The position numbers and the translations under genes were made by a program. From contig CM039210.1 of the NCBI GenBank assembly GCA_008360975.2, forward strand, positions 7,070,293-7,134,292: a DNA stretch of 64,000 nt, read 5' to 3'. The notes beneath the pieces are model-generated. The model made no database searches and had not been told where the DNA came from. It saw only the letters and a list, made by a program, of their open reading frames with translations. The stretch is from Lichenostomus cassidix (taxonomy: Eukaryota > Chordata > Aves > Passeriformes > Meliphagidae). Positions 1-55,598 of this stretch are shown in pieces; position 1 is the stretch's first letter; each line of letters begins with the position of its first letter.

Positions 1-60
1 TAAATCGATTCTTTTTCAATTCCTGGCCGGGTCACACTCTGGATGCAGTTCCGCTGGGTA

Positions 61-20868: not shown

Positions 20869-22646
20869 CTAACACTGGTGGGCATGTGTGTTAGAGGTTC
20901 CTTCAAGGGGATCGGACATGTTGACTGGAGCTACTTCCCTTCTGGTGGAGTTCCCTCTCTGAGTCTTGCCCTCCTTCAATTCACGCACTCGTCATGCCAG
21001 AACAGCGGTGGGTTGTCCATCCCACCTCCTCATGTTTTCTCCACTTTCACACAGGAAATACCACAACTCATGTCAAGTGGTGTATCCGTTTCTCATAGCT
21101 GAGGAGCATCTGTGTGGGGTAACAGAACCTCTGATCTGTACTGCCGAAATTTGGAGAAGGCTGTCTTTAATCTCCTTACTGAGTTTCTCATGATTCTCCT
21201 CTATCTTATCTTCTAGTTTCTGCAGATGTGTTTCCACAGCTGAGATTCTTGCATTCGTTGGGCTATGCACGGCATCTGCATATGCTCGGAGGTTCCTTGC
21301 CATATCAAACACGGTCTAATGCCTGTCATCTTGTTTCATCATTGCTAAAGCAGAAGCATATTCTGGTGGCCCAAGTCGTATGAGTTTCTGCCACACCACA
21401 GGTGTACATTCTACTGCATCTGGATCCACAAACGGGGCTGGGTTTGCTATGTCCTCTGGGAGGACAATCTCTACCAACGCCATTTCTCTCAAGCGTTGAA
21501 TCCCTTGTTCTATGGTCCTCCACAGGGTTTGTTGTATATAGAGATCCTCAGGGCATAGGTATCTTTCCCTTGCACCTTTGATAATTCGCTTCCAGAGGCT
21601 GCAAGAGTCAGCCCCATCCCGTGCTGCTCGGTTGATATCTGGGTCACATGACACGGTCCCTAAATGCCTTGCCTCAGTATCGTCTAGAAGTGTAACATCG
21701 CATGCAACATCCCAAAGACGGACTAACCAACTAATTATAGATTCATCTTTTTGTTGAACGTAATCTTTTCTTAGGCCATGAAGATCTCTCAGATTCATGG
21801 ATTCGACAATGATCTCTGACTCAGTTGTTGACTTTGATGATTCCTTCCCACTGTCACCTGGGCGATCAGTCTTGACTTGGGTTTTCTTGCTTCTCGTAAC
21901 AGGAGCAACTGCCACTGGCTTAGGCTCCCCGTCTTCCTGTACTATAGTATCTGACAATGTACGATAAGCATATGCCAAGGCCCAACTTATTGCACTGCAG
22001 TTGTCTCTGCACTTCTCTTTCAGATACTTCCCCACCTCAGCTGGTCTCGGGATTTGTCCAGGGAGAAACTCCCAATCTATTGGGTCAGAGAATTTCTTTA
22101 AAGTTTTACCTATGTCCTCCCATACTCCACACCATTCAAATTTTCCCACATCTGGGTCAGATGTCTGCTCCTGCTCAGCCCCTCTGGACCTCTCAACCCT
22201 CATTCTGGAAAAGCAGAACACCATATATATGGAAACTACCGGGTAAAACACCTGTACTACCAGGTTAATGGTCTCTTTAACATCCAGGGGAAATTGACCA
22301 TTCTCAAAAGGTGATGTACCAGATTTAAAGGGAATGAAATAGGTGAAGAACCAGGAAGCTTCATCCTCTGCTTCTCTATCAGGTTGGGTAATATTACCAA
22401 CAAAACCCCAAAACAAGCTATTAAAACTAGGAGAGGAAAGCAACAGAGCATGTACATTTTTAACTGTTTCCAATACCTTTTATAGATCATCAATACCACA
22501 CACATTACTATAACAAGCCGGAGTTGTGTCCCTGATCTGTGAAAATTATACATTAGCGACAAAATTGCCCCTACCTGTTGGTAGGGAAACAGGCCTACAT
22601 GCCAGATAGACAGTATCACATCAAACAACCTCCCATCAAACAACAT
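20869..22646 (-). pseudogene. gag: ERVL-2 gag with membrane leader
   Basis: Leader: an ATG at 22646 opens a 129-codon frame with hydrophobic spans (ILSIWHVGLFPY, LRLVIVMCVVLMI, MLCCFPLLVLIACF). A frame change near 22460 leads into the long frame 21316-22473 with a loop carrying the sequon GNIT (22387-22395), another hydrophobic span (INLVVQVFYPVVSIYMVFCF), a basic linker, and a capsid-like part (LRDLHGLRKDY, WLVRLWDVA). In-frame stops occur at 21316 and 21073, and again before the final UAG at 20869-20871. The order matches ERVL-1 gag throughout. No zinc knuckle is visible. Confidence 0.75.
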
Positions 22647-27235: not shown

Positions 27236-28305
27236 TAGTGCTCCTGCATTTTCTCTGTGAATAAACCTCTCCCTTACACTCATTAAAAGCCTCTCCCAGA
27301 GAGTAAGGGGCCCTGGCTCCCTCGCAAACACTCGATCAACACCCACATCATGTGTCAAGGATCCCAAATACCTTGCCTCACCACTATCCTGTTGCATGCC
27401 TGGGCCCATAAGGTCCCAGACCCCAAGTGATCAGGTCAGATAAACCTCATGCCCCTGTCGCACAGTGTCGTTTCACAGATTACAGAGACTCAGTGATGAT
27501 TTCGGGCTCTGGCTCCCCTGCTGGTTGTGAGGGCCCTGGTTCCCCATCAGCATTAACTGGGTGTACTGATTTGGTTTTATACTTTCTCCTCTGCACAGGG
27601 GCGACTGCTGCTGGTTGTGGCTATGCTTGTGGTCCAGCTGGAACCTGGACAGTTGCAACATCCATGGATTCCACTGATGCACCATCAGACGCTTCCCCTT
27701 AGGGGCAGGGAGAGGGTTTCCCACCAACTGGGGAAGTGTATTCACTCAGCACTTGGTGTACCTTGCGCATCTCCTCCACCAGTACCCCCTTCCAATCTGG
27801 GCGATTCATTTCTGAGGTGGGCTGTTGGGCAGGCTCAGGCTGTGGGGTAGCATCAGGTTCTGGGACAGCCTCAGGCTCTGGGGCAGCCTCAGGCTCTGGG
27901 GAAGCATCCCTAGTCTCTGGGGTAATGTTAGAGTGGTTACCCAGGGCAGTCTCACCTTATCTCTGAATGCTAAGTAGAATAGACCTATCAGCAGCACCAA
28001 CCACTGTACGATATCGTTAGCATTTGGAGACTATCAGAACCCTTCGAACACTAGTGGGGTAGGCCCAAAGAAATGGGTGAAGGATTGAGAGAAGGCTTCC
28101 CCCGGTGTTATTTCCTCACAATAGGTACCATTATTAAACAAACTCCAAAAGCATACACTTAGTGTGTGATAGCCCAGTATCCATGTGCCCATCTTCCAAA
28201 GCAAGCTAAAATTCAATGAATTTCTCACCTTATTGACCCATTGTGAGAACTGGATAACAGCCACAGTAGCCTTAGTCATAGGATCCATGTTTAGATAAGA
28301 GGCTG

Positions 28306-35261: not shown

Positions 35262-35772
35262 TGTGTTGGTTTGATAACAAACCAGTGGGAGATCACAAGT
35301 CAAGATTGAAATTAAAAATAAGTGAAATAATACAAGGAAAAGCACTGACAAAGTCAGATACAACCTAACACCCTGTTAGGGTGGTAGTAGCAGTCCAACT
35401 GAAGTAGTCCAGTTGAAGCGGTGATCCTGTGAAGGTCTAGTCTCCAGCTGAAGATCCAGTGGTAGCTCTGGTCCTCTGGGAACCCAGTAGACAGGGCTAA
35501 CTCAGGCAGTTCCAGGGCCAGGTTATATCCACGTGGGAACACCTGGTTCCTCCCTCCTGGACAGAGCATCTCACAATGGGATGAGATAAGTCCATGAGTC
35601 ACACGGTGGGTCCCTGATGGCCCATTGCCTGTCATGCGGGGTGGGTCGTTAGCAGCTGGTAACAGCTAACGGATGGCCCATTGCCTGTCATCCGGAGTGG
35701 GTGATAGCAGCTAATGGCCCACAGCTGGTGGTAATAGAATACTTAACTACATCAATATTGCAACCTAGGACA
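35262..35772 (-). repeat. 3' LTR of ERVL-1
   Basis: A 511-bp LTR, plus ends TGTGTTGGTTTG and CAACCTAGGACA, paired with 40625-41134. The TSD gttac precedes it (35257-35261). About a dozen base differences to the partner by eye (roughly 2-3 percent). Confidence 0.92.
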
Positions 35773-38700
35773 TTATCCACCCCTTATTCTATTACCATCT
35801 ACACAGTTCTCACTTAAGATAAGGTCTCCTTGTGGGACACAACAGGTTTCTCCATCTGTCTGCATCACCCACCAAGTATAACCAGGTCCTTGGGCAAAAA
35901 CCACTCCACGGATGGGTTTGCCTTTCCCTGAGGTGGGACTAATCCAAACAGTCTTTCCTAAAAAACCTCTTACGTGTACCACAGGGACTTTATCTCCATC
36001 CACTGTGTGCAAAGGTTCGGACTCAGCAGGACCGGCTCGATTGATAGAACCCCTTGTGTTAACCATCCAGGTGGCCTTTGCTAAGTTCAGTTCCCAATTT
36101 TTGAAGGTTCCCCCGCCAAGTGCCTTCAAAGTTGTCTTAAGTAGTCCATTGCACCGTTCAACTTTCCCGGCAGCTGGTGCATGATAGGGGATATGGTATA
36201 TCCATTCAATTCCGTGTTCTCTAGCCCAGGTGCTTATGAGGCCATTCTTGAAATGGGTTCCATTGTCAGACTCGATTCTCTCAGGGGTACCATGTCTCCA
36301 CAGGACTTGCTTTTCCAGACCCAAGATGGTGTTCCGGGCAGTAGCATGAGGCACAGGGTAGGTCTCTAACCATCCCGTGGTTGCTTCCACCATGGTCAAC
36401 ACGTAGCGCTTTCCTTGGCGGGTTTGGGGAAGTGTGATGTAGTCAACTTGCCATACTTCCCCATACCTGTGCTTTGACCATCGTCCACCATACCACAGAG
36501 GCTTCACCCGCTTGGCCTGTTTGATTGCAGCGCAAGTCTCACAGCTGTGGATGACCTGTGAGATGTTGTCCATGGTCAAGTCCACCCCTCGGTCACGAGC
36601 CCACCTGTATGTCGCATCTCTCCCTTGATGACCAGAGGCATCATGGGCCCAACGAGCTAGAAATAATTCTCCTTTGTGCTGCCAGTCCAGATCCACCTGT
36701 GACACTTCCACCTTGGCAGCTCGGTCCACCTGCTCGTTGTTACGATGCTCTTCATTAGCCCAACTCTTAGGTATATGTGCATCCACGTGTCGAACTTTCA
36801 CAGTCAGCTTTTCTGCCCGGGCAGCGATGTCCTGCCAAATCTCAGCGGCCCAGATGGGTTTTCCTCTGCGCTGCCAGTTAGCCTTTCTCCAGCGATCTAA
36901 CCATCCCCATAGCGCGTTGGCTACCATCCAGGAGTCAGTGTAGAGATAGAGCCTTGGCCATTTCTCTCGTTCGGCAATATCCAAAGCCAGTTGGATGGCT
37001 TTAAGCTCTGCGACCTGACTCGATCCACCTTGTCCCTCGGTAGCCTGTACAGCTTGTCGTGTGGGGCTCCATACTGCAGCTTTCCATTTCCGATCTGCGC
37101 CTACAATTCGGCAGGAACCATCAGTGAAGAGGGCATAGCGTCTTTCACTCTCCGGCAGCTCGTTATACGGGGGTGCTTCCTCGGCACGTGCTACTTGCTC
37201 CTCTGCATCTTCTGAAGATAATTTAAAAGTCTCACCTTCAGGCCAGTTTGTTATAATTTCCAGAATCCCAGGGCGATTCGGGTTTCCAATACGGGCGCGC
37301 TGTGTGATGAGGGCAATCCATTTGCTCCACGTGGCATCAGTGGCATGGTGGGTAGATGGAACCCTTCCCTTGAACATCCACCCCAGCACTGGCAGTCGGG
37401 GTGCAAGGAGAAGTTGTGTTTCTGTGCCGATCACCTCTGAGGCGGCTTGGACTCCTTCGTAAGCTGCCAAGATTTCTTTCTCAGTGGGAGTGTAGTTGAC
37501 TTCAGACCCTCTGTAACTTCGACTCCAGAATCCCAGTGGTCGACCTCGGGTCTCGCCAGGCACCTTCTGCCAAAGGCTCCAGGACAGACCATGGCTCCCG
37601 GCTGCAGAGTAAGGCACATTCTTTACCTCTGGTCCTGTCCTGACTGGTCCCAGGGCTACCGCATGAGCGATCTCCTGTTTGATCTGGGTGAAGGCTTGCT
37701 GCTGTTCAGGGCCCCAGTGGAAATCGTTCTTCTTGCGGGTTATGAGGTAGAGAGGACTCACGATCTGGCTGTACTCAGGGATGTGCATTCTCCAAAAGCC
37801 TATGGCGCCTAGGAAGGCTTGTGTCTCCTTCTTGTTGGTTGGTGGAGACATCGCGATGATCTTGTTGATGACCTCAGAAGGAATCTGACGCCGTCCGTCT
37901 TGCCACTTTACTCCCAGGAACTGGATCTCTCGGGCGGGTCCCTTGACTTTACTCTTCTTGATGGCGAAACCGGCTTCCAGGAGAATTCTGATGATTTTCT
38001 CTCCTTTCCCAAATACTTCCGTTGCTGTGTCTCCCCACACAATGATGTCATCAATATACTGCAGATGTTCTGGAGCCTCACCCTTTTCCAGAGCAGCCTG
38101 GATCAGTCCATGGCAGATGGTGGGACTGTGCTTCCACCCCTGGGGCAGTCGGTTCCACGTGTACTGCACACCCCTCCAGGTGAAAGCAAACTGAGGCCTG
38201 CACTCTGCTGCCAGAGGAATGGAGAAAAAGGCGTTGGCAATGTCAATGGTCGCATACCACTTTGCTGCCTTGGATTCCAGCTCATACTGAAGTTCCAACA
38301 TGTCGGGTACAGCAGCACTCAGTGGTGGTGTGACTTCATTCAGGCCACGGTAATCCACCGTCAGTCTCCATTCTTCACTGGACTTACGCACCGGCCATAT
38401 AGGGCTGTTAAAGGGTGAGTGAGCCTTGCTGACCACTCCTTGGCTCTCCAGTTCCCGAATCATCTTATGGATGGGGGCCACAGAGTCTCTGTCAGTGCGG
38501 TATTGTCGGCGATGCACTGTTGCTGTAGCAATTGGTACCCGCTGTTCTTCAATTCTCAGTAGTCCTACAGCAGACGGGTTATCTGAGAGACCAGGCAGGC
38601 TATTCAGTTGTCTTATGTCTTCTGTCTCTACGGCTGCTATCCCAAAAGCCCAGCGATGTCCCTTCGGGTCCTTGAAATATCCACTCCTGAGATAATCTAT

Positions 38701-38937
38701 GCCGAGGATGCATTGGGCGTCTGGACCAGTCACAATGGGGTGTTTCTGCCACTCATTCCCAGTTAAACTCACTTCAGCTTCCAGTACAGTCAGCTGCTGG
38801 GATCCTCCTGTCACCCCAGAAATAGAAATGGATTCGGTCCCCACATACCTGGATGGCATCAGGGTGCACTGAGCGCCGGTGTCAACCAAAGCCGTGTATC
38901 TTTGTGGGTCAGACGTGCCAGGCCATCGGATCCGCAC
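35773..38937 (-). CDS. pol: ERVL-1 Pol: protease-RT-RNase H-integrase
   Basis: An open frame of 1054 codons, continuous upstream for 18 more codons to the gag UAG at 38992-38994, so it is probably made as a Gag-Pol read-through product; the ATG at 38937 need not be used. Protease at the N-terminus has LVDTGAQC (about residues 16-23). RT has FAFTWRG, LPQGWKHSPTICHG and YIDD. RNase H has FTDGS, ELKAIQLA, YTDSW and QVDRAAK, so all four acidic residues are present. Integrase has the HDASGHQ...CETC zinc site and the catalytic D (QVDYITL), D (ESDNGTHF) and E (KVERCNG). The stop codon (35773-35775) lies in the polypurine tract and touches the 3' LTR. The protein copies viral RNA to DNA and inserts it; whether it is expressed is unknown. 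Confidence 0.92.
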   Translation of the reverse strand: MRIRWPGTSDPQRYTALVDTGAQCTLMPSRYVGTESISISGVTGGSQQLTVLEAEVSLTGNEWQKHPIVTGPDAQCILGIDYLRSGYFKDPKGHRWAFGIAAVETEDIRQLNSLPGLSDNPSAVGLLRIEEQRVPIATATVHRRQYRTDRDSVAPIHKMIRELESQGVVSKAHSPFNSPIWPVRKSSEEWRLTVDYRGLNEVTPPLSAAVPDMLELQYELESKAAKWYATIDIANAFFSIPLAAECRPQFAFTWRGVQYTWNRLPQGWKHSPTICHGLIQAALEKGEAPEHLQYIDDIIVWGDTATEVFGKGEKIIRILLEAGFAIKKSKVKGPAREIQFLGVKWQDGRRQIPSEVINKIIAMSPPTNKKETQAFLGAIGFWRMHIPEYSQIVSPLYLITRKKNDFHWGPEQQQAFTQIKQEIAHAVALGPVRTGPEVKNVPYSAAGSHGLSWSLWQKVPGETRGRPLGFWSRSYRGSEVNYTPTEKEILAAYEGVQAASEVIGTETQLLLAPRLPVLGWMFKGRVPSTHHATDATWSKWIALITQRARIGNPNRPGILEIITNWPEGETFKLSSEDAEEQVARAEEAPPYNELPESERRYALFTDGSCRIVGADRKWKAAVWSPTRQAVQATEGQGGSSQVAELKAIQLALDIAEREKWPRLYLYTDSWMVANALWGWLDRWRKANWQRRGKPIWAAEIWQDIAARAEKLTVKVRHVDAHIPKSWANEEHRNNEQVDRAAKVEVSQVDLDWQHKGELFLARWAHDASGHQGRDATYRWARDRGVDLTMDNISQVIHSCETCAAIKQAKRVKPLWYGGRWSKHRYGEVWQVDYITLPQTRQGKRYVLTMVEATTGWLETYPVPHATARNTILGLEKQVLWRHGTPERIESDNGTHFKNGLISTWAREHGIEWIYHIPYHAPAAGKVERCNGLLKTTLKALGGGTFKNWELNLAKATWMVNTRGSINRAGPAESEPLHTVDGDKVPVVHVRGFLGKTVWISPTSGKGKPIRGVVFAQGPGYTWWVMQTDGETCCVPQGDLILSENCVDGNRIRGG

Positions 38938-38991
38938 AGTCCAATAGATCCGATTGTCCCTTTCCTCTACCTGGCTAGAGGCAGGGCTCCT

Positions 38992-38994
38992 CTA
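38992..38994 (-). other. UAG stop between gag and pol (probable read-through site)
   Basis: Gag and pol are in one frame separated only by this UAG. In ERVL-2 the same UAG is at 20869-20871, also 18 codons before the first pol ATG. The bases after it share CCTGCCTCTAG and CAGGTAGAG. This is the arrangement used by retroviruses that make Gag-Pol by stop-codon suppression. Confidence 0.7.
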
Positions 38995-40569
38995 ATCCTG
39001 TTTTTGGTGCATGACGTTCTTCTCCTGTAAAAGTGTTCCTGAGGTCCCTTCAAGTGGATCAGTCATATTATCACTTCCATTCTGTCTGGAGTTCTGTCCA
39101 CAAGAGACTGGGGCAGTGTTGTACCTAGATGAGCCTCCTGAAGTTGATGTTTCTTTTTTCAATTCACGTACCCGGGCTGCTAAGGAGGAGGTGGGTTTCC
39201 TATCCCACTTTCTCATGTCTTCCCCATGCTCCTGCAGGAAAAACCAGAGGTCACGTCGTGGAGTTTGTCTTCTTTCCTTGGCTGGGGGATGTCTGCTCCT
39301 GATGGCAGAGACTCAGGTTGGTTTTGGTGTGGCATGGAAAAATCCTTCTTTGAGCTCTTTCCTTAGTTTCTGATTCTCTTCAATTAAGCTCCGGACTTGC
39401 GCGGCCAGGTTTGTTTCTACCGATGAGACCTGGGTGCGTAGTGGAGCGGTGACAGTGTCCTCGTAGATTCTCAGTTTGTTTGCTAACACACCCACCTGGT
39501 CTTCGCCTTCCCTCCACTGCAGTGTTGCCAGGTAACGAGAGTATATTTCTGGTCCGAGCCGCGCGAATCTTAGCCACATTTGTGAAGTGCACTGGACATT
39601 ATCTGGGCTCTTGGGGAATCTCTCGTTGTCCGAGAAAATGATCTCTAGCACGGCCAATTCCCTCAGGCATCGGATACCTTGTTCTATTGTGTTCCATTTC
39701 CTTTGGTGCATCTGGAGGTCTTCTTTGCAGAGGTATCTGTCCCGTACACTCGCCAGCAATCTCCGCCAGAGGCTGAGAGTTTCCTGGGTTTTCCCAATCC
39801 CCTGGTCAATAACCACATCCTGGGACAGGGATCCCAGTTGTCTGGCCTCACTTCCGTCCAGAATGGTGTCATTAGCGGCAGCATCCCATCTGCGGAGCAG
39901 CCAGGTTAAGATGGACTCGTTTGCCTGCCGGGTGAATTCCCTCCGTAGGTCCCGCAGCTCCCCCAGGGATAGAGAGCGAGTGATGATCTCCGGCTCTGTC
40001 TCTTCTGCTGGGTGAGATGGTCCTGCTGCATCCTCATCAGTCGCTATGCGGACTGATTTGCTCTTGGATTTCTTTTTCTGGACGGGGGCAACTGCTACGG
40101 GCTTCAGCTGTTTTGATTTGCTTTGTTTCTCCTCCGCAAGAAGACAAAATATTTTCCTGATCTGCAGCATGAGGTACACGGTGCTGGTCAAAGAAAACAG
40201 AACTAACAAAAAGATTATGCCATCCCTAGCATCCAGAGAGAACTCAATATCCTCAGAAAAGGCTGTGCCTGACCTGAAAGGCTGGAAGAAACCGCTCTCT
40301 CCTCCTAACCCCATAGGGTGGGTGCGATTGCTGAGGAGGTCCCAGACGTAGTGGCTCAGATTAGGCCAGGCAGACAAAACTGAGTATATGTTCCGAATGG
40401 TATTCATCGCCTCACAGGTTATCATACAATAGGCATAATAAACCAATAGAGCAATTCTCATGCCATTCCCTGGTCGCAACAGGAGCACTATGACAGGCAG
40501 ATAGTTTCCCATTTGAGGAAAAATATAGAGAGCGAGATACAGTACCCATATAGATAAGCTGAGCATCAT
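38992..40569 (-). pseudogene. gag: ERVL-1 Gag with N-terminal membrane leader
   Basis: First ATG after the PBS at 40569. The frame is open to an in-frame TGA at 39313-39315, then continues in the same frame to a UAG at 38992-38994. In place of a usual matrix domain the first about 140 residues are hydrophobic: LSLSIWVLYLALYIF, YLPVIVLLL and MRIALLVYYAYCMI, then a 60-residue loop with the sequon SNRT (40321-40329), then GIIFLLVLFSLTSTVYLML. A Lys-rich linker (VAVAPVQKKKSKSKS) leads to a capsid-like region (LRDLRREFTRQ, WLLRRWDAA) and a C-terminal coiled-coil-like stretch (SLIEENQKLRKELK). No CCHC zinc knuckle is seen. The same layout occurs in ERVL-2 and ERVL-4. The TGA makes this copy defective unless suppressed. 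Confidence 0.8.
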
Positions 40570-40601: not shown

Positions 40602-40619
40602 GCCCCACGTTGGGCGCCA
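40602..40619 (-). other. Primer-binding site, tRNA-Lys(1,2)
   Basis: TGGCGCCCAACGTGGGGC on the minus strand, an exact 18-base match to the complement of the tRNA-Lys(1,2) 3' end, five bases from the 5' LTR. ERVL of mammals typically uses tRNA-Leu, so this is a lineage difference. Confidence 0.9.
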
Positions 40620-40624
40620 AAATA

Positions 40625-41134
40625 TGTGTTGGTTTGAAAACAAACCAGTGGGAGATCACAAGTCAAGATTGAAATTAAAAATAAGTGAAATAATACAAGG
40701 GAAAGCACTGACAAAGTCAGATACAACCTAACACCCTGTTAGGATGGTATTAGCCGTCCAACTGAAGTAGTCCAGTTGAAGCGGTGATCCTGTGAAGGTC
40801 TAGTCTCCAGCTGAAGATCCAGTAGTAGCTCTGGTCCTCTGGGAACCCAGTAGACAGGGCTACTCAGGCAGTTCCAAGGCCAGGTTATATCCACGTGGGA
40901 ACACCTGGTTCCTCCCTCCTGGGCAGAGCATCCCACAATGGGATGAGATAAGTCCATGAGTCACACGGTGGGTCCCTGATGGCCCATTGCCTGTCATGTG
41001 GGGTGGGTCGTTAGCAGCTGGTAACAGCTAATGGATGGCCCATTGCCTGTCATCCGGAGTGGGTGATAGCAGCTAATGGCCCACAGCTGGTGGTAATAGA
41101 ATACTTAACTACATCAATATTGCAACCTAGGACA
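40625..41134 (-). repeat. 5' LTR of ERVL-1
   Basis: A 510-bp partner of 35262-35772, followed on the plus strand by the TSD gttac at 41135-41139. The U3 promoter lies at its high-coordinate end. Confidence 0.92.
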
Positions 41135-41261
41135 GTTACCCAAAATGTTCCATGAAAAGACAAGGAGAAGAAAGAGACAAAGACAGAAAAGATATAGAAA
41201 AACACATATATAGCTACCAACTGCTAAGTTCTAGCGTGGACTCCAAGAGCAAGCAGTGTCA

Positions 41262-41791
41262 TGTAGTGGTGGAGGAAACCATCTTGGGAACTGCTTGGGA
41301 GCCGAGTGGTCCCAGTACAGCAGGATTTCGCTGGTGGGAGACATCCTAGTCTGAGTACACCCCCTTGAGAACACGATAGTCCCCCTCCAGATTATGTAAA
41401 TCCCCCTGGCTGTAACCTAACCCCTGACTCCATCCCTCCCTTCTCCCCATTGGTTGTGGTGTTCCCCTGCCTCCTCTCCCCTGACCTCAGGTGATCCCTA
41501 TATCTAGAGACACCTAGGGTCTCCTCTTCCTCTTTCACGCTGGAACCCTTCAGAATAAACCTCTGGAACATCCAGCTGAATGAGCGCTCTGAGTTCTTTG
41601 TCTCTGGTAACGCACGAGCTATCCAGCTCCCTAGGTGAGTGAGAATCTGTGCCTTACACTGGCTCGGGTGTCAGAAGGGTCTTTCTGTACAGCACCAGAG
41701 CAGTGCTGGCTGGAGTGATCTCACAATAGCCTCAGAGACACTTTTGGTAAACGCAGAGGCCTGTTCCACACCTCATCTACCCTCTGCATTA
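41262..41791 (+). repeat. 5' LTR of ERVK-1
   Basis: A 530-bp LTR from TGTAGTGGTGG to CCCTCTGCATTA, paired with 48892-49419. The TSD gtgtca precedes it (41256-41261). It contains AATAAA near 41562. By eye it differs from the partner at about 14 positions plus a 2-base indel. It ends TTA rather than the usual CA. Confidence 0.9.
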
Positions 41792-41793
41792 AG

Positions 41794-41811
41794 TGGCGCC
41801 CGAACAGGGAC
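41794..41811 (+). other. Primer-binding site, tRNA-Lys3
   Basis: TGGCGCCCGAACAGGGAC, an exact match to the tRNA-Lys3 complement, two bases after the 5' LTR. Confidence 0.92.
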
Positions 41812-42109
41812 ATGAAAAATTCCTGAAAGTGTCTCGAAAGGCTTTATGCCATAGATGTCATGATCGGAGCAGCTACTTCCCTCGAAAACAGGTCTAAGTT
41901 TTATTAGATCTGTTTAAAGAGGCAGCTGAAAAATCTCCATTTGTCTTGGACGGGAGAAATCGGCTAAAACCAGAGAACCGCGCTGAAAGTTTTTTTTTAC
42001 ACTCTCGGAAGCCTTGAAGGTTGGTAAGTGAGGCCTTGCTTGAGTGAATTTTTTTTTGTTTTTTTCTTATCTTTTCCTTTCGGTGTTGGGAAGAATTTAT
42101 TTGGGGAAT

Positions 42110-43783
42110 ATGGGTGAGAAATTGACCCGTCCCCAAGCAGAGCTTTATACCCTCCTTAAAACCACCCTTAAGTCAGATAATTCCCAGTTTTCTAAGGGGA
42201 ATTTAAAATGTTTTGTTCGATGGATTTTTAACATATTTCTGAATGTTTCTGTAGTTTCTGTTCAGTCTCTTAGTTTCTGGGATAAGATCGGAGAGGAACT
42301 AACTGTTCTCACACAGGCTGGGGATCAAATGGTTGCTAATTTTCTCCCTTTGTTTGTAGTGATTTATAAGTCGGTTAGGAACTCTAAGACTGAGTCAGTT
42401 CTGCCGAAAAATTCAGATCCCTTATGTGCTGTCTCCCCTGTGTCCGTTCCCTCCCCCGCTGTCCCTAAACCCCCAGAACCTCAGAGGGGAGAAGCGCTCT
42501 CTCCCCTATCCCCTGCTCCAACCGGGACTGATCACCCCAATTCGAGCCTGTCCCTCACCCTCCTTCCAGCACCCCAAAACCTCCCTACCTCGACCTCATG
42601 TTTTTTACAAAATGGCGCGGCCCGCGTGGCACAACAAGCCGGGGTGCTTTGTTCATATCAGTTTAATACTCCCGGGCTAGCGTCGGCCCCACCCCCCGCG
42701 GTATCGAGTGTCCCTGCGTCGGTCCCACCCCTTGCGTCATCGGGTGTCCCGGCGTCGGTTCCACCCTCCATGGTATCGGGTGTCGTCCCTGCGTCGTCCC
42801 TGCCCCCCGCAGGGAGCTCCCACCTGGGCGCAGGCCCCTCCCTCGTTCATGCCCCCCTCCCTGGCGGTGCTACTCCTGCTGCCCCGCTCCTCCCCGGTTT
42901 CCATGGCAACGGAACCGGCCAGCGACAGAGGAAGAGCCGTCCCCGCCATGCCTGGTCCCAGGCTGCCTGTTCCTCTTCGGAAGAGGAGAGCAGTGACTCT
43001 GAGAAAGACCCCTGGCTTGAAATACGCAGGCAAGCCGCACACCAGGGAGACTGGGGAATAGCCAACAAAATCTCTGTCACTGCTGCACCAGTGCATTACA
43101 ACAGGGCTAGAGGGAACCCCCGCTTGGACGCCCTCCCATATGCACAGATAAAAGAAATGTGCAAGGTGGGGAAGGATTTTGGACGTGACTCCCCTTATTT
43201 TAAAAACCTACTCCAAGCTACCTTTGCTGCAAATGTATTAGTTCCACATGATATAAAAAATCTTATGGCATGTCTTCTATCACCGGGAGAATACATGCTG
43301 TGGGACAGAACTTGGAGAAAACAATTAAAAGACCTCCTGCAGGTATATCACAGGGATCCCAACAGAGCTCACCTAACACTAGATAATCTTTGCGGGGAAG
43401 GAAACCTAGTAAAACCCCAGGATCAGGCGAGACAATTGCCTGAACTGATTTTAGAAGATATCAAAAGAGAAGCTGACAGGGCTTTGCTCTCAACTCCCTC
43501 AGACTCCACCCCCTCTCTAAATTTCTCTACCATAAAACAAGCAATCGATGAGTCCTTTATAAAATTCTTCGACAGACTAAAACAGTCAGTCGAAAAGCAA
43601 GTTTGGAACTCAGAAGCCCAAAAGGAGCTGCTGTGTGCACTAGCTATGGCAAATGCTAATGAGAGTTGTAATAAAATCCTCCCAGCTCTCCCTCTAGATC
43701 CAGCTCCCACCCTCAATCAGATGATTGAAGCTTGCACCAAATTAGCATCCCCTGAGGCAACCATAGCCCAGGCAGTTTCATAA
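42110..43783 (+). CDS. gag: ERVK-1 Gag (matrix to capsid)
   Basis: The start is taken at 42110 because it gives an MGEKL myristoylation-type N-terminus; the frame is also open upstream to 42044. It encodes 557 residues: a matrix-like helical start (QAELYTLLKTTLK, FVRWIFNIF), a long Pro/Ser/Ala-rich middle (about residues 110-270), a region rich in acidic and serine residues (SSSEEESSDSEKD), and capsid (about 300-557, with AQIKEMCKVGKDFG, NVLVPHDIKNLM and a C-terminal part with LPALPLDPAPTLNQM). It ends at an in-frame TAA (43781-43783) just before the nucleocapsid, so this copy would make Gag without its RNA-binding end. Confidence 0.85.
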   Translation: MGEKLTRPQAELYTLLKTTLKSDNSQFSKGNLKCFVRWIFNIFLNVSVVSVQSLSFWDKIGEELTVLTQAGDQMVANFLPLFVVIYKSVRNSKTESVLPKNSDPLCAVSPVSVPSPAVPKPPEPQRGEALSPLSPAPTGTDHPNSSLSLTLLPAPQNLPTSTSCFLQNGAARVAQQAGVLCSYQFNTPGLASAPPPAVSSVPASVPPLASSGVPASVPPSMVSGVVPASSLPPAGSSHLGAGPSLVHAPLPGGATPAAPLLPGFHGNGTGQRQRKSRPRHAWSQAACSSSEEESSDSEKDPWLEIRRQAAHQGDWGIANKISVTAAPVHYNRARGNPRLDALPYAQIKEMCKVGKDFGRDSPYFKNLLQATFAANVLVPHDIKNLMACLLSPGEYMLWDRTWRKQLKDLLQVYHRDPNRAHLTLDNLCGEGNLVKPQDQARQLPELILEDIKREADRALLSTPSDSTPSLNFSTIKQAIDESFIKFFDRLKQSVEKQVWNSEAQKELLCALAMANANESCNKILPALPLDPAPTLNQMIEACTKLASPEATIAQAVS

Positions 43784-43978
43784 GGGGTAATGGAAGCACT
43801 AGCAGTATCACAGAAAATACCACCTAGATGTTATAACTGTGGGAGTTTTCAACACATGGTCAAAGACTGCCCTATACCAAAGCATGCTAAGAGAAATACT
43901 AACAAAAATACTGAGGCTGTGCCCCCAGGCTGTCCCTGCCAGCATCACCATCAGAAGAACCAGGGAAACGGACAGTGA
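43784..43978 (+). pseudogene. gag: ERVK-1 nucleocapsid, cut off by an in-frame stop
   Basis: In the gag frame right after TAA 43781-43783. It has one clear zinc knuckle, CYNCGSFQHMVKDC (C-x2-C-x4-H-x4-C), then a basic stretch and a degenerate second knuckle (CPCQHHHQKN). It ends at 43976-43978. Split from Gag by the stop. Confidence 0.75.
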
Positions 43979-44742
43979 AGCACAGCGCAGCTCCGCGCAA
44001 AGACACAAATTCTACAGCTGTCTCTCCCTGCCCTGCAACCCCTGCCATGGATTGTAACTGCGCACCACACAGCGGAACAGACAAAAGACTCCGTCTTGTA
44101 AGTACTGATACACACCACTTCCGCAATGGAAATCAACAACACATATATGTAGATTTTGAAAAACCTTTTGACAAGACTGTGGACATCTTGGTAGTTGGGG
44201 ACACCAAGCACGGTCCACCCGAACTTTCTATTTTACCTGAGGTGCACAAAGTAGACCCCAGTGGATGAGTACAAATTTCTGTCTCCTGTAACAACACTCC
44301 CTGGTTTCTATCAAAGGGTCAGGTGGTAGCACAAGCTATCATACTACCTGAAAACCACCCCAGGTGCCACAGAACACCTTCCATATGGTGGGCAGAGGTT
44401 GTGGGCGCAGACAAGCCCATGATGCATTGTAAACTATGCAGTGATAAATCCACTGCTTACCTGATGGGGATGGTAGACACGAGGGCCGATGTAACCATCA
44501 TTTCTCGAGCAGAATGGCCCCAGGACTGGAAAACCAAACCAGCAGGCAGGAGAATCACAGGCCTAGGAGGGTCAGCAACTTCCCAGAGGAGTACAAATAA
44601 TATCATCATAGAAGGCCCTGAAGGACACACAGCCACCATCCGCCCATATGTAATTGACTCTGGTTTTACCCTCTGGGGCAGAGATCTCCTTACCCAGTGG
44701 GGGACTCAGCTGGTAATCCCACCTCCATCTCAGGATTTCTAG
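43975..44742 (+). pseudogene. pro: ERVK-1 dUTPase-like region and protease
   Basis: In the -1 frame relative to gag, as usual for class II pro. The first part (43975-44340) ends with a segment (KGQVVAQAIILP) resembling the end of betaretroviral dUTPase, but the remainder is degenerate and a TGA interrupts it at about 44266-44268. Protease follows: the active-site motif reads VDTRADVTI, with Arg (AGG) where aspartic proteases have Gly, and GLGGSA and WGRDLLTQWG follow as flap and C-terminal motifs. A TAG ends the frame at 44740-44742. An enzyme with this Arg should not work. Confidence 0.75.
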
Positions 44743-47440
44743 TTGAGGCCACTGGGAGACGCTCCACCCCTTCTTACCTGGAAAACAAACAACCCAGTAT
44801 GGGTGACCCAGTGGCCCCTCAGCAAAGAGAAGCTCAATGCTTTAGAATCCCTGGTAGAAGAACAGCTTGCCAAGGGTCACATTGTACTATCTAATAGCCC
44901 TTGGAACTCCCCTGTCTTTGTCATATGGAAACTTGGAAAAGACAAATGGAGGTTCCTCCAAGACCTCAGGAAAATCAATGAAGTCATAGAGGATATGGGA
45001 CCCCTACAGCCTGGCCTGCCCTTGCCCTCAATGCTTCCTCGGAATTGGAAGCTTGCTGTCATTGACATTAAAGACTGTTTCTTCACAATCCCCCTACACC
45101 CAAGTGATGCTCCTCGGTTTGCTTTCTCCGTGCCATCCCTAAACCAAGAAGCCCCCCAGCGCAGATACCACTGGTGTGTGTTACCCCAGGGTATGAAAAA
45201 TTCTCCAACTATTTGTCAATGGTACGTGGCTCGCGTCCTGTCCCCCATCCGCAAAGAGTTTGCACGTTCTATCATTCTCCACTACATGGATGATGTGTTA
45301 ATTTGTGCACCAAATGATAAATACCTGAACTTAACTCTAGAAAAAACTATTCAAGCCATTGAAAAAGCAGGGTTTGAGATCCAGCAGGAAAAGATTCAGC
45401 TTACCTGCCCGTGGACCTACCTGGGACTTCGCATCAGCGAACGGACCATCGTACCCCAGCAGCTCACCATCAAAGACAACCCAAAGACACTCTGGGACTT
45501 GCACCAACTGTGTGGTTCTATAAACTGGGTTCGTCCTCTGCTGGGAGTTACTATGGAGGACCTTGCACCACTGTTTAACCTCCTGAAAGGCTGTGACCAC
45601 CTGGACTCACCCCGAGTCATCACAGAGGAGGCCCGGGAATCCATCGCTAAGGTACAGCTTGCCCTGTCTTCTCGCCAAGCCCATCGGACAAGTCCTGAGT
45701 TACCTTTTAATTTCACTGTTCTGGGTAAGTCACCCAGGCTATATGGACTGATTTTTTCAATGGGACACTGCACAAAAAGACCCACTTATAATAGAGTGGA
45801 TCTTCTTATCACATCAGCTGCTCAAAACCATACCAACACGACAAGAACAAATAGCCCAACTAATTATGAGAGCCAGAGCACTCCTCCGTACCCTTGCAGG
45901 GTGTGATTTCACCTGCATCTATCCATCATTGGAAAATGATTCCTTAGCAAACGTACTCCAAACAAATGAACACCTTCAATTTGCTCTGGATAGTTATCCA
46001 GGCAAGATTTCAAATCATCATCCAAAACATAAATTATTCAATTCGGCTTTTTATTTGGCCCCAAAAGAACTTCAAAGTCGAACCCCTCTCAAGGCTCTAA
46101 CTGTTTTTACAGATGGCTCCGAGAAATCCCAAAAGTCAGTCGTGACTTGGAAACATCCCGAAATGCAAGTGTGGGAGCACAATGTCCAAATAGTGGAAGG
46201 CTCTCCACAAATTGCAAAGCTAGCAGCCGTTGTTAGAGCTTTCGAGATGTTCGAAGAACCTATTAATCTGGTAACAGATTCAGCTTATGTAGCTGGAGTA
46301 GTTGCCAGAGCAGAACATGCCTGGCTAAAAGAAGTGTCAAATCCTAAATTGTATAAACTGCTCTCAAAACTTGTTTTTCTGCTTTCCCACAGAAAGCAGC
46401 CGTTCCATGTGATGCATGTGAGGTCACACACCGATCTCCCTGGACCAGTTGCTGAAGGGAATCAGAGGGCAGACGCTCTAGCTATGCCGGTGAAAGCTCC
46501 TAACATTCCAGACACCTTTGCTCAGGCAAAGCTGAGCCATCAATTTTACCATCAGAATGTACCAGCACTCATAAGAATGTTTAAACTACCTCGAAACCAG
46601 GCAAGAGCAATTGTAGCAACCTGTCCTAGCTGTCAGAGCTACCAAGTGCCATCGTTAGGGTCCGGGGTTAACCCCCGGGGTCTAGGCAGCTGCGAAATCT
46701 GGCAAACAGATGTAACCCATGTCCCTCAGTTTGGCAAATTAAAATATGTACACGTTTCTGTAGATACATTTTCTGGAGCTGTTTTTGCATCTGCCCGTGC
46801 AGGAGAAAAGGCAAGAGATGTTATAAAGCACTTTCTCCTTGCTTTTTCTACCCTGGGTGTTCCTGCTGAAATAAAAACTGATAATGGTCCAGCATACATC
46901 TCCAACAGACTTCAAGAGTTTTTTAGCTCGTGGGGTATCAAACACATTACAGGCATTCCCCACTCCCCCACAGGACAATCCAGAGTTGAGAGGACCCACC
47001 AGACAATTAAGAGGGTCCTAGACCAACAGCAGAGAGGGTCAGAACTCAATTCTCCCATTGTGAGACTCTGCAAGGCCCTTTTCACAATAAATTTCTTAAA
47101 CAATTTGTTTGAAGAGCCTGACCCCCCTGTGTTCTGGCATTTTACTAATTCGACTCAAGCCAAATTAAAAGAACAACCGTCGGTGTTGATCAAAGATCCA
47201 GAAAGCCATCAAATATCAGGCCCCTTTTCACTAATTGTATGGGGGAGGGGATATGCTTGTGTTTCCACACCTTCAGGACCCAAGTGGATACCAGGAAAAT
47301 ATGTAAAGCCCTACCTCCGACCGTCAGTGACAGCTCCTGAGCAGACGAAAGATGACACACCAGACACTGACAAAGAAACCCCAGACAAAGAAACCAGTGC
47401 CACTTGGAGAAGACGTCGGCGCAAGATACCAGCCACGTGA
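44743..47440 (+). pseudogene. pol: ERVK-1 Pol: RT, RNase H and integrase, one frameshift
   Basis: Two overlapping open frames. 44743-45906 encodes RT: PLSKEKLNALESLVEEQL, DIKDCFFTIPLH, LPQGMKNSPTICQWY and YMDD. At the T6 run 45752-45757 the frame shifts by one base, and the coding continues in the frame 45866-47440. That part holds the RT connection; RNase H (FTDGSEKS, AAVVRAFEMF, VTDSAYVAG, GNQRADALA); and integrase with HQFYHQN...CPSC, then D (TDVTHVP), D (KTDNGPAY), E (RVERTHQ), the C-terminal WGRGYACV and a Lys/Arg-rich tail. The gene follows a TAG in the protease frame. Catalytic residues are all present, but the break prevents one full-length product. Confidence 0.88.
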
Positions 47441-47609
47441 ACAGCTATTTGTGCCGCCTTCAAGCAGTTCCCCAAACCCACAAATCCCTTATCTGTTACC
47501 CTCATGTGTTTCCCTAACCCACAACCCTATTACCTGTGTGTTATGAGAAAAAAGGGGGGATGAGAGGGAAAAAAGAAAAAAGTGACAGAAAACCATCTTT
47601 TAATGATTT

Positions 47610-47627
47610 TTGCTTGAAATCCCACAG
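47610..47627 (+). promoter_or_regulatory. Candidate splice acceptor for env mRNA
   Basis: A pyrimidine-containing tract ending in CCCACAG lies about 30 bases before the env ATG, as expected for a spliced env message. Only sequence context supports it. Confidence 0.35.
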
Positions 47628-47659
47628 AAAAAAGGACTACCTATACCTTTCTTATCACC

Positions 47660-48979
47660 ATGCCTGTAATTGCCTACCTCTGCATTCTCCTGACCTCCTG
47701 GATCCTGTTACCACCAGAGGCTGTCGCATGGATTGTCCCGCAGCCAAAGACCAACATGTGGGTCACATTGGCAAAAGCACTCCAGCAAGACCATATGTGC
47801 CTGTCTATGGGCAGCGTCAGTGACCCATTTTCATCATGCCTGGTGGGGATCCCTCTCCACGGAGACGAACTGCCTTTTGCAAACCAAGTGCTCCACCAGA
47901 AAGAAGCTTGGGAGACATGGGCAAACACGCTGGCAACGGCACCGGAGGAACCCCACGAATTGCTATTATTGGGGTCCTCCCAGGCTACCCATTGCCTCAA
48001 GTTTGTCTTCAGCCTGAAAGGAGGGATGGCATTATCCTGGTCAGAACACCAGAAATTAAGTCATAGTAGAAATGCAACACCCCAGGAAAAGGTTTACTCT
48101 GTCAGTAATTGGTGTCAGGATAATAAGGTCATCCCAGCAGAGTCATCTGTACACCCCAAAGCACTGCCTACAGGTGTGTTCCTGATTCGCGGGAATCGGG
48201 CGTGGTCTGGAATCCCATCCCAGTTCCGGGGGGGGCCGTGCACTCTCGGCAGGCTTTCTGTACTGGCACCCAACAAAACCCAAATTCTATATTGGAGAAA
48301 CCATACTCGATTGGCCTGCCAAAAAAGAAATATACAACAATTAGATCCAAATTGTGATAGCGAAGTTATCAATTGGTTATTGTCTAAAAGGATTGCTGCA
48401 TCATTTTTCCTGCCTGGAGTAGCGGCAGCAAAAGCCTTAGGTGAACTTAGCCACCTTGAGTGCTGGCTCGGAAAGCACGCTAACCTAACCTTGAGTGCCC
48501 TCTCTCAGCTTCTTGAGGATGAAGAAACCACCAGGCATGCAACACTGCAAAATAGAGCAGCCATCGACTTTCTTTTATTAGCCCATGGACATGGCTGTGA
48601 GGAATTCGAAGGGCTGTGTTGCTTTAACCTGTCATCTCATAGCCAGAGCATCCACGTGATGATACAGAAAATAAAGGATCAAATCAAAGAACTAAAGACA
48701 GAAAAAGAAGCAGACTGGATTGGTGATCTTTTTGGACAATGGGGACTTCAAGGATGGCTAACATCCTTAGTCAAAGCTGGACTGTGGGTGATTCTAATAA
48801 TTTTCCTTGTTCTAAGCTTGTTCGGTTGCCTCAATAAGTGTTTAACTGAGCAAGTAGGGGAGGCCTTTCCTTTAAATAAAGAAGGGGGAGATGTAGTGGT
48901 GGATGATACCACCTCGGGAACTGCTGGGAAGCCGAGTGGTCCCAGTACAGCAGGATTTCGCTGGTGGGAGACATCCTAG
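47660..48979 (+). CDS. env: ERVK-1 Env, intact open frame of 439 codons
   Basis: Residues 1-23 form a signal peptide. The surface part (about 24-244) is short for a retrovirus and has several sequons (NAT, NKT, NHT). A Lys-Arg at 243-244 (LSKR) is the likely surface/transmembrane boundary, though it does not fit the full furin pattern. The hydrophobic, Ala-rich stretch after it (AASFFLPGVAAAKALG) is fusion-peptide-like. The conserved helix LQNRAAIDFLLLAHG precedes CX6CC (Cys 313, 320, 321). The anchor GLWVILIIFLVLSLFGCL is at about 373-391. The last 29 codons and the stop lie in the 3' LTR. The C-x6-CC region looks alpharetrovirus-like, unlike the betaretrovirus-like pol. It is the only open structural gene in this provirus. 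Expression is unknown. Confidence 0.85.
   Translation: MPVIAYLCILLTSWILLPPEAVAWIVPQPKTNMWVTLAKALQQDHMCLSMGSVSDPFSSCLVGIPLHGDELPFANQVLHQKEAWETWANTLATAPEEPHELLLLGSSQATHCLKFVFSLKGGMALSWSEHQKLSHSRNATPQEKVYSVSNWCQDNKVIPAESSVHPKALPTGVFLIRGNRAWSGIPSQFRGGPCTLGRLSVLAPNKTQILYWRNHTRLACQKRNIQQLDPNCDSEVINWLLSKRIAASFFLPGVAAAKALGELSHLECWLGKHANLTLSALSQLLEDEETTRHATLQNRAAIDFLLLAHGHGCEEFEGLCCFNLSSHSQSIHVMIQKIKDQIKELKTEKEADWIGDLFGQWGLQGWLTSLVKAGLWVILIIFLVLSLFGCLNKCLTEQVGEAFPLNKEGGDVVVDDTTSGTAGKPSGPSTAGFRWWETS
48878..48891 (+). other. Polypurine tract of ERVK-1
   Basis: AAAGAAGGGGGAGA lies directly before the 3' LTR. It is also within the env coding frame. Confidence 0.85.
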
Positions 48980-49419
48980 TCTGAGTACACCCCCTTGAGA
49001 ACACAATAGTCCCTCTCCAGATTATGTAAATCCCCCTGGCTGTAACCTAACCCCTGACTCCATCCCTCCCTTCTCCCCATTGGTTGTGGTGTTCCCCTGC
49101 CTCCTCTCCCCTGACCTCAGGTGATCCCTATATCTAGAGACACCTAGGGTCTCCTCTTCCTCTTTCACGCTGGAACCCTTCAGAATAAACCTCTGGAACA
49201 TCCAGCTGAATGAGCGCTCTGAGTTCTTTGTCTCTGGTAATGCACGAGCTATCCAGCTCCCTAGGTGAGTGAGAATCTGTGCCTTACACTGGCTTGGGTG
49301 TGAGAAGGGTCTTTCTGTACAGCACCAGAGCAGTGCTGGCTGGAGTGATCTCACAATAGCCTCAGAGACTTTTGGTAAACGCAGAGGCCTGTTCCACCCC
49401 TCCTCTACCCTCTGCGTTA
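48892..49419 (+). repeat. 3' LTR of ERVK-1
   Basis: A 528-bp partner of 41262-41791, followed by the TSD gtgtca at 49420-49425. The env stop codon is at 48977-48979, inside U3. Confidence 0.92.
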
Positions 49420-50508: not shown

Positions 50509-51010
50509 TGATGCCTGATGGTTTTTTGTCCTTTCTCTTTATACCCTTTTTATGCATTTCATACCTTTTCCCATTCCCTGTACTTTTCACTCCCTGTATC
50601 TTAGCCCCACATGTTTATAACCCTCGTACTCTAGCCTAGTTCGGAATTCTTTGGGGAAGACAAAACATCCTTAGTATCTCAGAACATGAGGCACCAACCT
50701 TGAACAGAGCCTCCTCTCTGGAACATGTTTTTGTAAACTAAGTTGTAGCCTCATTTGGGGGAGGGGGGGATAATTAGAATAGGGGGACAATTACTTCATT
50801 TGTTAGGTTTCTTATTGGGGGATTTTAGATAGATATGCTAATTTAGGAAGTCCATAAAATTGTACACTCATTGTACCCAGGGGGCTTCCTCGGTGTGATT
50901 CCACCTTCGATGAGGGGGAGCACCTGGGATCCTATTAAAACCAAGGTAATACCCTTTTTTCCCTATACTGCGGTGTCTGCGTCTTATTTTTACCAGCATT
51001 TTAGGCATTA
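50509..51010 (+). repeat. 5' LTR of ERV1-2 (class I, family d)
   Basis: A 502-bp LTR starting TGATGCCTGATGG and ending TTTTAGGCATTA, paired with 55599-56109. The TSD atac is at 50505-50508. Confidence 0.9.
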
Positions 51011-51014
51011 GTTC

Positions 51015-51031
51015 TGGCGAGCCAGGCAAGA
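51015..51031 (+). other. Primer-binding site, tRNA-Arg type
   Basis: TGGCGAGCCAGGCAAGA, 15 of 17 identical to the complement of the tRNA-Arg 3' end, four bases after the 5' LTR. Confidence 0.7.
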
Positions 51032-51600
51032 CCAAAGGGGACCCCGAGTTCCAATTCTGGACCAAGAAACACCCCGCTGCACCCCCCACTTGCCGGCACT
51101 ATACGGGAGGGAAGAGGCGGTCCGGGATTGTGAAAACCAGGGAATTTCCAAAAAAACCTACCGCAGAAACACTGCAGGAGAGGTAAGATCAAAAGGGTTT
51201 TTACGGTTTTATTGCTAGCTAGCAACTGGGGGAGATCTCCATCTGGGCAGGAGTGTGGCCAAGGGGGCCATAAAGGAGGGGTTTTTACAACCTACTCTGC
51301 TCCCGCAGGGGGCTGTGAGGAGAAGGGGATGCTCTTCGTTACTACTCATACAGGGCCACATAGTGGCTCACGGGGGGCCGTGGCTCAGAGAGAGCTGTGG
51401 CCCAAGGGTTGGAGATGTAGGTTCATCTACCAAGGCTGGTAGTTCGAATCTTGCCACGGTTTCTAAGCTGTGTGCGTGCACTCTTTTAAGCTTGCTTTCC
51501 TTACTCTGCTGGGCATGGGAACTGCGGGTTTGTTTCTCGCGCCAGTCTCCAGGCTAGGAGCTTTCTTTCCGGCTGTTTCTTTTCTGTTTATAAGCAAAAC

Positions 51601-53220
51601 ATGGGTGGTGCATCTTCTACTAACCCAAAAATCCCACAAGAATCCCCACTGGGTCTGATCTTAAAAACCTGGCATGACCTAACGGGGAAAAGAACCCCTC
51701 TGAACACGGAGGAATTAACTAGGCTCTCGTTGTGGGTGTGACCTGTGTTGGAACTGGAGGGGGGAGAGAAATGGCCCAATCTAGGTAGTTTAGAGGACCA
51801 ATTAATTACAAAATTACTGGTAGAGCTTCGGGTCTAGGGAAGGTTTGATGAGTTAAGGTATGCAGAGTTGTTTTCTATATTCCTGAATCGGGAGGAGGCA
51901 TACAAACAAATGAAAAAAGACTGCCTGCCTTACGGGAAATAATATCTTACCCCTTGTCGCTATAGGGGCCAGCTGGACCGGAGGAGGTGGCAGGAGCCTG
52001 GCCCTGGCTCCCTCCGCCGCTGCTGCTGCCGGCAGCCCCCCTCCCTGCCCCGGGCTGATGCGGCACTGGGAGTGGGGGATTGGTGGCCCTTGCCAGTTCC
52101 CCTCCCCCCTGCCACGGTGGGGCTGGGGCTGGGGGACGGCTGGCCACTGCCCCCTCCGCTGTCACCCTCCCCGGCCGCCCTGAGGGTGGAGGCAGGGGAG
52201 AAACAGGGGCGGGCCGATCACCATCCCCACACCGCCCAGCGGGCGGAGGCAGGGGGGGGAGCGGAGGCAGGTCCAGATGGGGAAGGAAGTGCATCTACTG
52301 CTGTACCTGACCCCTCCCAGGTTGGGAAAGGGGAGGGCGGAGGGCTTCACCGCGTGGTCAGTGACGGAGCTGAAGGAGCTGAAGGAAAAATAACCGCAAT
52401 TAAAAGCAAGCCAGATGAATTCAGTGCAGATAGCTCCAAGAAGGAGAAGGCGGGAACAGGGGCTGTAGCCACAGCAGCCAGCGGGCTTACCGGGAAGAAG
52501 AGGGGAAAGGTAACCCGGGAGGCTATAGGGGTTGCTAGTCTGGCAGCTGAACACACCAGATCTAAAAGAGATGAACCAAAAAAGAAAGAGGCTGTCCTAG
52601 AAGCACCTTTGAGGCAGGCTGAGGGGAAACTGAGTCAAGGTACTGTAAATGTAACCAGTGCCACAGGGATTAGTGAAACAAGGCCTTTCTTTCAACCTTT
52701 AAAATTTAAACTGGAAAAATCCATTCTGCCAGTAAAGAAGGCTGATGGTAAAAGTTACAAATTAGTGCAGGATTCAAAAACAATTAACAAAACCACAGAG
52801 GACATAGAAGACATAGATTCAGTTGTGCCAAACCCCTACATTTTTCAGACCACATCGAAAAATGAACTAGGGAGGTTCACAGTTTTAAGTCTCAAGGATG
52901 CCTTTTCCTGGATTTCTATAAGGAAAAGTAGTCAAGAACTCTTTACATCTGAGTGGGAAAATCCTGAGATAGGAGGAGAGACTCAGCTCACCTGGACAGA
53001 GATACTCCAAGGGTTCAAGAATAGCCCAACTATATTTAAACATCAGCTGTCAAAAGAACTAAAGAACTGGAGAAAACAAGAAAAAACTTTATATGAAGCC
53101 CTTAAGAAAGCTGAGAAAGGAAACATCAACTGGACAGAGAAAGCAAGGGTCGCATTTAAACAACTAAGACATTCCTTAATGTCTGCTCCAGCTCTGGGGC
53201 TGCCAGACCTACCTATATAG
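51601..53220 (+). pseudogene. gag: ERV1-2 gag-pro-RT fusion remnant
   Basis: Gag starts at 51601 (MGGASS, PLGLILKTWHDLTGKRTPLN) and soon meets stops. From 52072 an open frame of 382 codons runs through a Pro/Gly-rich region and a Lys-rich region (KKRGKVTREA, KRDEPKKKE). It then runs straight into a protease-proximal piece (SETRPFFQPLKFKLEK) and RT from ILPVKK onwards, ending at 53220. The segment with the protease C-terminus and RT start present in ERV1-1 (15800-15910, 23397-23690) is missing. So is the YVDD core: KNWRKQE is followed at once by LYEALKKAEKG. No active enzyme can result. Confidence 0.75.
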
Positions 53221-53278
53221 GAGGAGCAGAATGTTGCTCTAGGGGTACTAACAGCACCTTAAAGACCAACAAAGAGCT

Positions 53279-55583: not shown

Positions 55584-55598
55584 AAAAAATTGGGGAAA

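Follow-up and report, generated by a model that had tools for sequence, protein, structure and literature searches.

The stretch of DNA analysed here (hereafter the window) comprises 64,000 nucleotides of contig CM039210.1 of the passerine bird Lichenostomus cassidix (assembly GCA_008360975.2, positions 7,070,293 to 7,134,292) and carries a cluster of retroviral elements on a 24-Mb contig of a genome of 1.10 Gb in 514 contigs. We focus on one of these elements, ERVL-1, and on the hydrophobic leader with which its Gag protein begins. The ERVL-type label was carried over from an earlier, sequence-only reading of the window and not derived from a pol phylogeny. All parts of ERVL-1 lie on the reverse (-) strand and are given here in the order in which the element is read, with counts of copies referring to 70 copies sampled from the same genome:

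40625..41134 (-): 5' long terminal repeat (LTR), a direct repeat with 35262-35772
40602..40619 (-): primer-binding site, read from the sequence
40120..40569 (-): membrane leader of Gag, codons 1-150, in the open frame
40477..40569 (-): first hydrophobic stretch, residues 1-31 (hydrophobic window 1-19; helices 2-16, 18-22 and 24-31 in the structure model)
40456..40476 (-): basic turn R32-R38, seen in the sequence and predicted to be cytosolic
40405..40455 (-): second span, residues 39-55, bounded by eye at flanking charged residues (best window 27-45; model helix 36-67)
40225..40404 (-): loop, residues 56-115, predicted to be lumenal from the charge of homologous loops, with a weaker hydrophobic window (61-79) inside
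40354..40362 (-): second sequon, N70-L-S, in 63 of 70 copies
40321..40329 (-): sequon N81-R82-T83
40156..40224 (-): last membrane span, residues 116-138 (window 118-136; model helix 114-150)
40144..40146 (-): juxtamembrane Cys142
39985..40155 (-): basic linker, residues 139-195 (omega 0.20 over residues 151-195)
39445..39984 (-): capsid-like part, residues 196-375
39337..39444 (-): long helix after the capsid, residues 376-411 (model helix 359-411)
39313..39315 (-): gag stop specific to the window copy, from its sequence and comparison with the sampled copies
38992..38994 (-): gag stop of the family (QKQD-stop), in the gag frame, with pol continuing in the same frame
35773..38991 (-): pol frame with protease-like part, reverse transcriptase (RT), RNase H and integrase, ending at the 3' LTR
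35262..35772 (-): 3' LTR, a direct repeat with 40625-41134

The two LTRs differ at 11 of 510 aligned bases, and we take the primer-binding site to be of the tRNA-Lys type. The gag ATG at 40569 is the first after this site, which it follows by 32 nucleotides in the context ACCATGA, and it opens a frame of 418 codons (40569-39313). The sequence-only reading had placed this open frame correctly, but the stop at 39313 is peculiar to the window copy: in sampled copies with long frames, Gag ends with QKQD-stop at residue 523-550. The motif could be identified in 59 of the 70 copies, 58 of which have TAG as this family stop, pol follows in the gag frame, and one ERVL-1 copy has an open frame of 1632 residues; TAG between in-frame gag and pol suggests that stop read-through may serve as the gag-pol switch. 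The pol product (1072 residues) has Pfam matches to RT, RNase H and integrase as well as a protease match below the cut-off. Its frame runs to the 3' LTR with no env between them, and the combination of an LTR pair with gag and pol but without env fits an ERV-L-like (class III) endogenous retrovirus. No dUTPase follows the integrase among the Pfam matches of pol (E up to 1), which weakens only a claim to mammalian-type ERV-L and not the ERV-L-like status of the element.

The first about 150 residues of Gag consist of hydrophobic spans, a sequon-bearing loop, a last span and the beginning of a basic linker that leads to the capsid-like part, and this layout, including N-R-T at 40329-40321, is what the sequence-only reading had described. 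Its count of three spans before the loop stands less firmly: residues 1-31 are indeed hydrophobic but broken, and together with the second span they may amount to two spans, not three. We favour a model in which the leader would cross the membrane three times, or four if the first stretch forms a hairpin. Each of the other five reading frames of the leader DNA contains 5 to 11 stops.

Related Gags turned up in many birds among the matches listed in protein searches, with no named mammal or reptile among those matches (120 of 149 and 120 of 260 listed). A profile of the leader matched 49 of 227 proteins, some across short stretches only, and a protein search with the leader alone matched three proteins including the query. 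Among the profile matches are passerines (Manacus, Sylvia, Vidua and Cyanistes among them, with partial proteins from Hirundo), the hawks Morphnus and Buteo, the ibis Theristicus, the ducks Anas and the goose Anser; homologous leaders are thus found in elements of all these birds. The sequon is present at the N81 column in 34 of 39 aligned rows (ERVL-1 and ERVL-2 included), or in 34 of 38 when P0039, which starts past the site, is set aside, and P0228 reads N-Y-T there. A conserved tryptophan shortly before the sequon, which had been proposed as part of the pattern, holds for passerine rows but not for hawks and waterfowl.

Conservation at this site has a particular shape. When 135 leader columns were ranked over 29 rows of less than 85% identity, 25 of which reach the sequon, N81 came first and T83 fourth, and the middle residue came 125th; with 17 and 13 rows, N81 and T83 took ranks 2 and 3, and the middle residue ranks 74 and 61. 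Column 81 of the 25 rows holds N in 23 and P in 2, and column 83 holds T in 22, S in 2 and I in 1. Conserved ends around a free middle residue look like selection on the sequon rather than on the local sequence. The leader as a whole is variable, with 12-58% identity versus 25-87% in the capsid over 16 rows (of 20 rows, 4 were left out because they lacked the motif that marks the capsid start; two close pairs are set apart); within this comparison the capsid of P0055 appears to be frame-damaged, and the capsid tree has good support at 4 of 13 inner branches.

Within the bird's own genome, a leader search yielded 150 scored copies of 913 candidates at 82-100% identity, 137 of them stop-free within the match by hand count. 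Our sample of 70 (ranks 1 to 30 and every other rank from 31 to 109, which adds 40) has N81-x-T83 without exception, with R in 54, H in 14 and C in 2 copies at the middle position; Met1 is found in 69 copies, 62 are open through 160 codons, and 8 carry a stop within the first 150. For the 39 copies open over at least 480 codons, the ratio of nonsynonymous to synonymous substitution rates (dN/dS) on inner branches is 0.44 for the leader (bootstrap 0.29-0.65) and 0.07 for residues 196-400 with the capsid (0.02-0.14). The whole leader is therefore under purifying selection, far weaker than that on the capsid. Both results count in favour of the sequence-only reading, which a leader dN/dS near 1 or a sequon not conserved in further copies would have refuted. 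Replacements spare hydropathy, with observed versus expected shifts of 1.74/2.91 (first span), 1.74/2.97 (second span), 2.25/2.69 (last span) and 2.11/2.65 (loop).

The orientation of the leader can be predicted from charge by the positive-inside rule. Over 18 leaders, with windows set by a hydropathy rule that misplaced them in some rows, the loop has a summed net charge of -43, with 14 loops negative, 3 neutral and 1 positive. The 30 residues past the last window total +26 and are positive in 14 leaders; the stretch from the first window to the second totals +10 and the N-terminal tail -1. Because of this bias, which holds in most rows, a lumenal loop and a cytosolic capsid are the favoured arrangement. 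As drawn, N81 would lie about 26 residues from the nearer span, far enough for glycosylation, for which the limit is about 12-14 residues from the membrane, and N81 is likely to be glycosylated. The structure model of the window Gag (mean predicted local distance difference test score, pLDDT, of 68) has a helix at 69-82 in addition to those listed above, and the model of homologue P0126 (mean pLDDT 58) has helices 2-27, 30-65, 67-85, 100-111 and 119-147.

We read the leader as an obligatory, N-glycosylated anchor of Gag in the endoplasmic reticulum (ER) that would let Gag assemble at the ER membrane without Env, and we give this reading a probability of roughly two in three; ER insertion, topology, glycosylation, budding and the site of assembly are what we infer from the sequences. 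Translation would start at the leader ATG, the ER translocon would take up the first hydrophobic stretch, and the loop would come to lie in the lumen, where N81 would receive an N-glycan. The last span would halt transfer, the basic linker and capsid would remain cytosolic, and Gag, thus fixed in the ER membrane, could assemble capsids there or bud into the ER. Such anchoring would make both Env and a myristoylated matrix dispensable. In passages of PMC8278194, ERV-L and foamy virus are listed as lacking a myristoylation signal. A role of the leader in re-infection, which had also been entertained earlier, is unsupported.

Several observations weigh against an obligatory glycosylated anchor or soften the support for it. 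The sequon is missing from four homologues (P0062 as well as P0186, P0195 and P0206 from waterfowl), 17 of 70 copies have an ATG no more than 60 nucleotides upstream of the leader start, and the search by leader similarity biases the copy sample toward intact leaders. The dN/dS set is likewise limited to long frames, and the estimates for single parts are loosely bounded (0.34, 0.15-0.72, for residues 1-55; 0.49, 0.26-1.04, for the loop alone; 0.65, 0.25-1.52, for residues 116-150 with the last span). Hydropathy-sparing replacement is seen all over the leader, strongest in the first two spans, and is thus not specific to spans. The charge bias has its exceptions, with a non-negative loop in 4 of 18 leaders and a negative flank past the last span in another count of 4 of 18, all of them waterfowl (P0156, P0168, P0186, P0195). 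The leader pLDDT ranges from about 34 to 81 per ten-residue block, and the topology comes from hydropathy and charge. Finally, the leader has four hydrophobic windows and its shuffled versions mostly have 4 or 5; what sets it above chance is its conservation, not this count.

The first alternative, which we consider unlikely, is that signal peptidase or the viral protease releases the leader, after its entry into the ER, as a separate small membrane glycoprotein, with Gag assembling in the cytosol or elsewhere. The much more rapid evolution of the leader than of the capsid, which could be that of an accessory part, and the low-complexity linker between the two would suit such processing, but the basic linker and Cys142 (70/70 copies) past the last span resemble a stop-transfer anchor. 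Quite unlikely, too, is an anchoring leader whose N-x-T is unglycosylated and either structural, for example at a helix end, or cytosolic. The model does put N81 at the end of helix 69-82, and the hydrophobic window 61-79 just before the sequon could be a span, which as a crossing would leave the sequon in the cytosol and so also counts against glycosylation; against this alternative stand the free middle residue (rank 125 of 135) and a column 83 that, over 25 rows, departs from T only to S in 2 and to I in 1.

A more far-reaching variant would have the leader stand in for Env as a minimal surface protein built into Gag, since its lumenal, glycosylated loop would face outward on any budding particle. 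We regard this as decidedly improbable; if true, the leader would guide particles along the secretory pathway or from one germ-line cell to another. That the leader is a dispensable or decaying hydrophobic stretch, a chance reading upstream of the capsid, is hardly credible: it changes faster than the capsid, and 8 of 70 copies have the early stop mentioned above, but its dN/dS range excludes 1, and leader and sequon recur across several bird orders. Just as little credible is a remnant of Env or of herpesvirus glycoprotein C fused to gag. A weak PHA03269 match in the TguERVL2_I_Ucy gag, given in passages of PMC6523648, might suggest it, but that match falls, we suspect, in the repeat linker, and PF02124 matches neither the window Gag (E up to 1) nor seven homologues (E up to 10).

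Among known systems, foamy viruses share class III membership and a tRNA-Lys type primer site with ERVL-1, but their membrane leader belongs to Env and not to Gag as in the bird ERVL elements. The Gag of intracisternal A particles (IAP), class II elements with one N-terminal signal, is reportedly brought to the ER by the signal recognition particle, as the title of Fehrmann 2003 has it, and a polytopic leader whose loop bears a conserved sequon is not known to us from IAP Gag. MuERV-L is env-less like the bird element, and its particles accumulate in the ER according to passages of PMC5930517, the main text of which contains neither "transmembrane" nor "hydrophobic". Ty1 Gag also enters the ER, co-translationally, but has no discernible signal or span, and its authors saw no evidence of N-glycosylation (passages of PMC3945221).

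The parallel to glycosylated Gag of gammaretroviruses that had been drawn earlier holds only loosely. The glyco-Gag of murine leukemia virus (MLV) is made in addition to ordinary Gag from a CUG start upstream, and its topology is given as type II and, in one report, as type I (passages of PMC12530543). A membrane leader on Gag and the potential for N-glycans (which MLV's carries) are common to both, but start and topology differ: the bird leader begins at an ATG, no leaderless start was seen, and the capsid is predicted to be cytosolic. A non-AUG start upstream of the ordinary Gag start, as in glyco-Gag, is not what we find in ERVL-1, because Met1 is kept as described above and none of the 39 open copies encodes a Met in the stretch that joins the last span to the capsid start. 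Our best reading by analogy is that the leader may be close in effect to the Gags of IAP and MuERV-L and unlike glyco-Gag in start and topology. TguERVL2 of songbirds, an ERVL with two long frames sharing one reading frame in passages of PMC6523648, resembles ERVL-1 in this arrangement as far as its description goes, and "transmembrane" does not occur in the main text of that paper.

In titles and abstracts we found no description of such a bird ERVL Gag leader, nor is it described in passages of PMC5930517, PMC3945221, PMC8278194, PMC2717909, PMC4299795, PMC12530543 and PMC6523648. Few cases are known of how Gag reaches membranes in env-less retroviral elements, and in this group, found in several bird orders, a leader that is polytopic and probably glycosylated appears to do so. 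This leader is a small, directly testable protein, and the branch without the domain that otherwise follows it offers a natural experiment on matrix function.

This domain, which we call matrix-like by position alone, follows the last span in most full-length homologues. It is present in 33 of 49 leader-bearing homologues including ERVL-2, some of the other 16 being partial gene models, and in none of the 70 ERVL-1 copies, about 7 of which could not show it with frames cut at the first stop. In songbird proteins such as P0043, P0055, P0065 and P0084, the leader likewise runs straight into the repeat linker, and the leader is thus kept in ERVL-1 and several songbird relatives despite the missing domain. 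The simplest account would be a loss, because Manacus P0003, with a capsid 87% identical to that of ERVL-1, has the domain. No distinct structural match was found for its fold. For residues 196-375, a capsid fold is suggested. Searching solved structures by sequence brought up no convincing match (best E 0.41 and 0.89), and Foldseek found no significant match in the PDB. A BFVD match to a phage protein (E 0.0057) had a TM-score of 0.08 and was taken as noise. Pfam matches in the leader all remained below cut-offs and differed from homologue to homologue. In duck P0153, the linker before the capsid is expanded to long Pro-Ala-Val repeats.

Two further elements were compared inside the window and with other birds, and their sequons lie where the sequence-only reading had put them (N-I-T at 22395-22387 and N-G-T at 28132-28124). 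ERVL-2 has a frame change inside the leader; the ERVL-4 leader contains stops and, by eye, an insert:

22480..22646 (-): hydrophobic first part of the ERVL-2 leader, in the other frame
22387..22395 (-): ERVL-2 sequon N-I-T
21955..22143 (-): matrix-like domain of ERVL-2 (approximate), not in ERVL-1
28124..28132 (-): ERVL-4 sequon N-G-T

By hand count, 49 of the 150 scored leader copies lie on the window's 24-Mb contig, which makes up 2.2% of the assembly; this enrichment is presumably what is expected of a W chromosome. A neighbouring element at 41261-49190 carries pol, a gag with p24 and an Env that matches Avian_gp85, and its 300-nucleotide LTR pieces are 97% alike; another at 50535-55985 has RT, RNase H and integrase matches and 300-nucleotide LTR pieces that are 98% alike.

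Three proteins named as USP4 isoforms (P0129 from Buteo, P0138 from Accipiter and P0139 from Tyto) join an N-terminal part of USP4 with its DUSP and ubiquitin-like domains to the portion of an ERVL Gag that begins just past the last span, and so to a Gag that lacks the membrane leader. This fusion in hawks and an owl is a candidate for a co-opted host-Gag protein or else for a gene-model artefact, and the literature found on search makes no mention of USP4. Two pieces of bird ERVL Gag, P0075 and P0198, are filed as Klebsiella pneumoniae proteins and probably represent host DNA inside bacterial assemblies.
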